Source of the DNA: a virus
Virus record (IMG/VR): IMGVR_UViG_3300035703_000248
Span: 1-35,397 of that record
Strand: one strand, 5' to 3'
DNA length: 35,397 nucleotides
Below, piece after piece: positions 26,946 to 27,450 of the stretch (its first letter is position 1; each line of letters begins with the position of its first letter). The notes under the pieces are model-generated. The model saw only the letters and a program-made list of their open reading frames with translations. It was not told the DNA's origin and did not search any database. Both the position numbers and the translations under genes were made by a program.

Positions 26946-27181
26946 CGATCCCCCCTCATCGCGCCCTTCAGCGCCTTCACGAGCCCCATCGCGGCCTCGT
27001 AGTGCAGCGTGAGCATCGCGAGGCGGTCGTCGTCCACGAGCACGAGCACGTCGAAGCAGGGGCGGTCCCGGTCGTCGGTGTGCCCGGCCTCGAACGTGAT
27101 GCGCACGGAGGCGGAGCCGCCGTTGTGGTTGGTTGCGCAGTTGTCGATGATGCTTGGTGTCATGGTGAAGTAGCCGCTCAT
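26942..27181 (-). CDS. Unknown 79-aa protein
   Basis: This protein begins at ATG 27181, overlapping the stop of the Gly/Tyr-rich gene by 4 nt, and ends in another 4-nt overlap. A second ATG at 27163 is possible. The N-terminal ~20 residues include IIDNCATN. The middle has alternating strands (ASVRITFEAG, DVLVLVDDDRLAMLTL), and the C-terminus is a short helix (AAMGLVKALKGAMRG). It looks like a small alpha/beta domain. No family recognised. Confidence 0.6.
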   Translation of the reverse strand: MSGYFTMTPSIIDNCATNHNGGSASVRITFEAGHTDDRDRPCFDVLVLVDDDRLAMLTLHYEAAMGLVKALKGAMRGDR

Positions 27182-27450
27182 TTGCGCCGTCCACGGTTTT
27201 GTACGGTGCTGTCGCCGCCACCGTAGCCGTCGCCGTTGCCGTAGCCGTCGCCGCCACCGTAGCCGTTGCCGTAGCCGTTGCCGTAGCCGTAGCCGTCGCC
27301 GCCACCGTAGCCGTTGCCGTTGCCGTAGCCGTAGCCGTAGCCGTCGCCGCCACCGTAGCCGTTGCCGTTGCCGTAGCCGTAGCCGTAGCCGTCGCCGCCA
27401 CCGTAGCCGTTGCCGTTGCCGTTGCCGTTGCCGTTGCCGACAGGCCTCAC
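27178..27450 (-). CDS. Gly/Tyr/Asn-rich low-complexity repeat protein
   Basis: This 90-aa protein is almost entirely Gly alternating with Asn, Tyr or Asp. A run of GN dipeptides is followed by about five copies of a unit near GYGGGDGYGYGYGNGN, with the later copies shortened, and the end is a basic tail (STVQNRGRRK). GTG 27450 is chosen because GTGA overlaps the upstream stop and GGGG lies 6 nt ahead; GTG 27462 is an alternative. Its stop overlaps the next ATG by 4 nt. Being coupled at both ends argues strongly that the frame is translated. Evenly spaced tyrosines in a flexible Gly matrix are the composition of phase-separating proteins; such behaviour here is inference. Confidence 0.75.
   Translation of the reverse strand: MRPVGNGNGNGNGNGYGGGDGYGYGYGNGNGYGGGDGYGYGYGNGNGYGGGDGYGYGNGYGNGYGGGDGYGNGDGYGGGDSTVQNRGRRK
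27211..27440. repeat. Nested hexanucleotide tandem repeat
   Basis: On the plus strand the DNA is a near-continuous run of six-base units GCCGTA, GCCGTT and GCCGTC, grouped into a higher-order unit of about 48 bp marked by CGCCGCCACC. It encodes the Gly-x dipeptides of the minus-strand GY-rich protein. Two-level periodicity suggests growth by slippage and later block duplication. Copy number may be unstable or misassembled in short-read data. Confidence 0.9.

Follow-up and report, generated by a model that had tools for sequence, protein, structure and literature searches.

A Gly-X dipeptide repeat gene is the near-obligatory downstream partner of DUF6948-type genes in phages

Whether a hexanucleotide array in a viral genome encodes a protein that the phage uses, and in which reading frame, is the question raised by the locus presented here. 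The window, meaning the whole stretch of DNA that was analysed, comprises 35,397 nt (positions 1 to 35,397 of the IMG/VR virus record IMGVR_UViG_3300035703_000248), and this source agrees with the phage origin proposed in the first-pass annotation. On the minus strand, TRF places an array at 27221..27439 that repeats every 6 nt (36.5 copies) and, at a higher order, every 48 nt (4.6 copies, 95% matches), encoding GNGN..GYGGGDGYGYGYGNGN units. The array is not a product of chance, since identity at lag 6 reaches 0.83, whereas no other 220-nt stretch of the window exceeds 0.43. All three minus-strand frames are open across it (ORFs of 254, 190 and 94 aa), so that the window alone gives no proof of the frame in use and the proof has to come from relatives.

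The (Gly-X)n repeat gene (27178..27450, minus strand) runs from a GTG start at 27450 to a TGA stop at 27178-27180, and may alternatively start at a GTG at 27462 (MGHQV...). Its 90-aa product, MRPVGNGN...GYGGGDSTVQNRGRRK, begins with M-R-P-V-G (27436..27450, minus strand) and closes with the basic tail STVQNRGRRK (27181..27210, minus strand). The start codon shares GTGA with the stop of a 101-aa partner gene (27447..27752, minus strand; type A in the following), a DUF6948-like small beta-barrel, and the TGA overlaps as ATGA with the ATG of a 79-aa downstream ORF (26942..27181, minus strand), for which no family match was found in Pfam or PHROGs. Both the translation-coupled layout and the basic tail described in the first-pass annotation are therefore present. 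Searches of the repeat protein against Pfam, PHROGs, NCBIfam and PADLOC returned only low-complexity noise, such as TrAA12, and the locus had no blastn match among cultured phages.

Searching by sequence alone, the upstream protein was found to have 281 relatives in IMG/VR, and 80 of these type-A loci were fetched. A (Gly-X)n ORF follows the partner gene directly in all 78 loci with readable downstream sequence, starting at the end of the partner gene or at most 16 nt before it. The check proposed in the first-pass annotation, a search for the same gene beside DUF6948-like genes in related phages, is strongly positive; the arrangement named there as refuting, with the neighbouring genes directly joined, occurs in 0 of the 78. 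Among 72 complete repeat proteins, window included, 71 have RP or a close variant, then [VI]G, at the N-terminus, and 65 carry a C-terminal tail with a net charge of at least +2, which in the relatives typically reads GT[VC]xxxRxRRx. The proteins span 33 to 130 aa, and in the 33-aa example (L055) the array is down to 14 residues with both conserved ends retained. Where close relatives differ in length, the difference is a multiple of 6 nt in 21 of 22 cases and 27 nt in the remaining one; within the type to which the window belongs, no frameshifting copy-number change was seen, an outcome named beforehand as one that would count against a protein.

Across phages more broadly, a partner-based survey covered 225 usable loci with four divergent types of upstream gene (Pfam DUF6948 and kin), the seeds for types B, C and D being picked by an array scan and their relatives found by partner sequence alone. 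An array lies within 700 nt downstream and on the same strand in 217 of the 225 loci (A 78/78, B 5/5, C 66/73, D 68/69), and only 11 arrays are located elsewhere in about 1,300 kb. Among the eight misses, five (L209, L213, L251, L256, L276) hold a degenerate Gly-rich ORF and one (L358) reflects a contig end. For the reverse test, viral contigs were scanned for the DNA pattern (GGN TAY GGN NAY)n, blind to the partner, which gave 79 loci, 59 of them with enough upstream sequence. In 47 of these 59, a DUF6948-like gene ends at most 1.2 kb upstream on the same strand; it lies downstream instead in three, and four are tail-fibre-like proteins (L096, L138, L160, L167). The (Gly-X)n gene is thus a near-obligatory downstream partner of the DUF6948-type gene, and the window gene, with its Gly-X array directly behind such a gene and its type-specific ends, belongs to the same family.

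Two further observations concern other settings. GYGYGYG tracts inside tail-fibre-like structural proteins, seen in L134 as well as in the four loci just named, form a separate context. At L155 (12130-12726), a GX ORF lies downstream of a 93-aa protein (MENWKIFIIAGGFYFFGNEV) without a DUF6948 match, which is possibly another partner type.

The pair is also present in named phages, where its annotation varies. In Eggerthella phage PMBT5, gp37 is the partner (33% identity) and gp38 is a (GX)n protein annotated as 'adsorption protein'. Pectobacterium phage Ymer, Vibrio phage IKEMa6-1 and a Monoglobus element carry the pair as well, as do Iodobacter phage PhiPLPE, in which the repeat ORF was left unannotated, and Chlorobiaceae phage CV-1-33 and MW202566, in which the wrong frame was annotated. 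Wrong-frame or missing annotation likewise affects L360 (2267-2528), L366 (2315-2605) and L361 (1150-1470), with products given as MAMALA.. or MVMVMV.. or omitted; at L360 the Gly frame starts with a separate ATG at 2267.

That the Gly frame is the one selected as protein follows from length changes in 6-nt steps without frameshift, together with an X position occupied nearly only by Y, D, S and N. Over 6,425 positions in 189 arrays of all types, X is Tyr in 40%, Asp in 23%, Ser in 22% and Asn in 7%. His and Cys, the easiest changes from Tyr codons, reach 0.7% each; their rarity argues for a residue set restricted at the protein level. The same residues are written with different wobble codons from locus to locus (GGC, GGG or GGT; TAC or TAT; TCC or TCT), mostly uniformly within any one array, which indicates homogenisation by slippage under amino-acid constraint. 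Conserved ends outside the array and in-frame folded domains fused to it in other phages are additional marks of protein-level selection. The array gene therefore encodes a genuine protein of a large and widespread phage family. The spacing of Tyr, described as even in the first-pass annotation, is only marginally more even than in shuffled sequences (mean z about -0.27). Types C and D have acidic arrays in which basic residues are nearly absent. A diversity-generating origin of the variable NAC codons through adenine mutagenesis was considered and is disfavoured, CAC (His) being rare and TCC (Ser) common.

In other phages the array is joined in frame to folded parts, namely a C-terminal TGSC domain in type C and an N-terminal GACxDGV domain in type D. 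Across these proteins it is thus the array that stays constant and the ends that are exchangeable. Profile phrog_18306 (242 positions) is matched by GX arrays at 57-140 and by DUF6948 at 154-236, a coverage of both parts which suggests that fused members exist; among the fetched loci, no unambiguous in-frame GX-DUF6948 fusion was found, the only case being L292, with an internal Met before DUF6948. The same locus (2496-4268) holds several tandem paralogous GX genes around one DUF6948 gene, the paralogues starting with SPKLIRGVV..WA and ending with YSEDVQ. The C-terminal domain 'AHG...TGSC.MGR..F..HGID' was observed on GX arrays of L210, L220, L364 (2276-3037) and others, and its fold gave no convincing match, the best being a Z of 6.3 to an EF-hand protein. 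Arrays are also fused to DUF7666 (L163) or to DUF7666-like 'LHAT' domains (L293, L297, L306, L311). The one frameshifted array seen is L381 (1219-1510), of a different architecture, in which the array is out of frame with the C-terminal domain; a related intact copy, L379, is present in the same IMG/VR genome.

The upstream gene of the window had been called DUF6948-like, and this holds through intermediates, the window protein itself having no match to Pfam DUF6948 (PF22253) at E<=1. Other partner types match PF22253 at E 1e-26 to 7e-9, with types C and D above the Pfam gathering cut-off of 27 bits, and type B matches it at E 0.0013. Type B and the window protein in turn share 34% identity across 67 residues (BLASTP E 3e-11), and BFVD structural matches link the window partner to DUF6948 proteins at 9e-4; a direct profile-profile comparison of type A with types C and D is weak (E 0.016, probability 3%). 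The window partner is thus connected to DUF6948 by homology through type-B intermediates, and the shared genomic partner and the BFVD fold agree with homology. A PDB sequence search with the DUF6948 profile gave no match, and DUF6948 had no matches in 299 genomes from the phylum of a Burkholderiales MAG, a negative that carries no information because no control matched either.

AlphaFold2 models the window partner, from 103 sequences, as a beta-strand barrel that includes one helix (pLDDT 89, pTM 0.72). Against the PDB, Sm/LSm or TIP60 chains lead the Foldseek matches and account for nearly all of the 50 best in VIA-align 2; TIP60 is a designed cage with an Sm-like part. The best Sm-type matches (Foldseek E 0.018; Z 7.5) lie in a range that is common for small barrels and below family-level significance. 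By eye, the Sm1/Sm2 signatures are absent from the partner alignment, in which neither a D..N loop signature nor an RG in the final strands is visible, and the partner is best described as Sm-like in predicted fold and not as a member of that family. In the fused relative L210, AlphaFold2 gives the array a pLDDT of 24-27 between modelled parts, a low value being expected for low-complexity chains.

The genomic context is one of replication and recombination. In the window, a block of recombination and replication genes (29769..34965) lies upstream on the same minus strand as the repeat gene and includes VRR-NUC (29769-30206), a helicase (30316-31974), DUF669 (33486-33800) and AAA_24 (34207-34965). 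In the phages examined, pairs adjoin genes for SSB, RecT/RecE, RusA, AAA_24 and PD-(D/E)XK proteins, and the pair sits in or near the replication/recombination region in these cases.

A pattern kept this strictly implies that the pair must do something for the phage. Our leading reading, tentative and given somewhat less than even confidence, is that a disordered multivalent scaffold and its Sm-like partner organise assemblies of nucleic acid and protein, close to the genes for replication and recombination. The array would be an intrinsically disordered chain with Tyr as stickers and Gly, Asn, Asp and Ser as spacers, and its ends (in the window the RPVG start and the basic tail, in other types folded domains) would bring in nucleic acid or client proteins. 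The partner, as a small Sm-like beta-barrel, would bind the chain, nucleic acid or both, so that the two together could concentrate phage replication or RNA-protein complexes, and in-frame slippage by 6 nt could lengthen or shorten the array and thus tune valence with the protein unbroken. A wider version, which we regard as rather doubtful, describes a two-gene system of phages from several phyla, in which an Sm-like barrel and a Gly-Tyr dipeptide chain would build a condensate that organises RNA-protein or replication complexes, the chain serving as an interchangeable scaffold for fused client domains.

Other explanations have to be weighed against the same observations. With Gly on one face and Tyr, Asn, Asp and Ser on the other, the chain could instead assemble in order into silk-like beta-sheets or polyglycine-II bundles with a structural or adhesive role, and the alternation, kept strictly through about 6,400 Gly-X dipeptides of 189 arrays, fits such an assembly as well as it fits disorder. 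Phage adhesins contain Gly-rich PPII bundles, and the same arrangement has been modelled for a Gly-Tyr keratin-associated protein (PMC8409303); the annotation of PMBT5 gp38 points in this direction too, although an adhesin reading of gp38 was rejected on gene context. T-even-like phage polyglycine adhesins share with the repeat protein their Gly-rich composition and phage setting, but their Gly runs form PPII helices in a tail adhesin (PMC8409303), whereas here Gly-X is strict and the context is the early region; the repeat gene has neither the tail-fibre context nor the consecutive Gly runs of the T-even tail-tip adhesins. Asp at about 23% of X positions would be unfavourable on one stacked face, AlphaFold2 leaves the array of a relative unstructured, and the neighbours are replication and recombination genes, not tail genes; we consider ordered assembly unlikely.

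A decoy role, with an acidic aromatic chain sequestering a host factor (a nucleoid protein, an RNase or a defence sensor) and array length tracking an arms race, would suit the acidic type C and D arrays, the rapid change in copy number and the replaceable ends. No PADLOC model matched, the tail of type A is basic, and one partner shared across hosts of several phyla speaks for a phage-internal role; we judge this explanation quite unlikely. Very improbable is a DNA-level element, in which the hexamer array would act as an origin, a binding array or a G-rich structure with the frame incidental. Mostly uniform wobble within arrays and the three open frames of the window would be compatible with it, but loci differ in the wobble codons used for the same residues, 30 of the 189 arrays have stops in frame +2, only a restricted set of residues occurs, and it is the Gly frame that holds the conserved ends and the fused domains.

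Scaffolds of this general kind are known from the prion-like low-complexity proteins of RNP granules, such as the FUS/hnRNP type and the LSm4 tail. Like FUS/hnRNP-type scaffolds, the repeat protein combines a Gly/Tyr/Asn/Ser composition, regularly placed Tyr and a basic segment with a partner of predicted Sm-like fold; unlike them, the repeat family alternates Gly-X strictly and is of phage origin. The partner's predicted fold resembles Sm/LSm proteins (3BY7, LSm rings) at an E of about 0.02 and Z up to 7.5, with no Sm1/Sm2 signature, and 3BY7 is itself of metagenomic origin, a homologue of a hypothetical gene that has been discussed as viral (PMC2530865). PF22253 (DUF6948), which matches the upstream partner of the other types and not the window protein, has no assigned function, and no mention of a repeat partner was found for the family. 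The unannotated phrog_18306, of unknown function, contains both GX array and DUF6948, and the window repeat protein matches it at noise level. In the literature covered, which takes in few subscription journals, no paper named DUF6948 or DUF7666 or described the repeat family, and neither these papers nor the family libraries searched gave a description of the pair. Low-complexity scaffolds as a kind are known; what looks new is that the chain is strictly Gly-X, that its partner is near-obligatory and that it occurs in phages.

The pairing also reveals an annotation problem, as public records translate the wrong frame (MAMALAMA..., MVMVMV...), lack the gene or call it an 'adsorption protein'. 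It spans phages or elements of Pseudomonadota, Actinomycetota, Bacillota and Chlorobiota, and length and residue mix vary naturally among hundreds of members, which makes sequence-function tests possible. A near-invariant pair of low-complexity chain and folded partner provides a genetic handle on low-complexity sequence in bacterial viruses.
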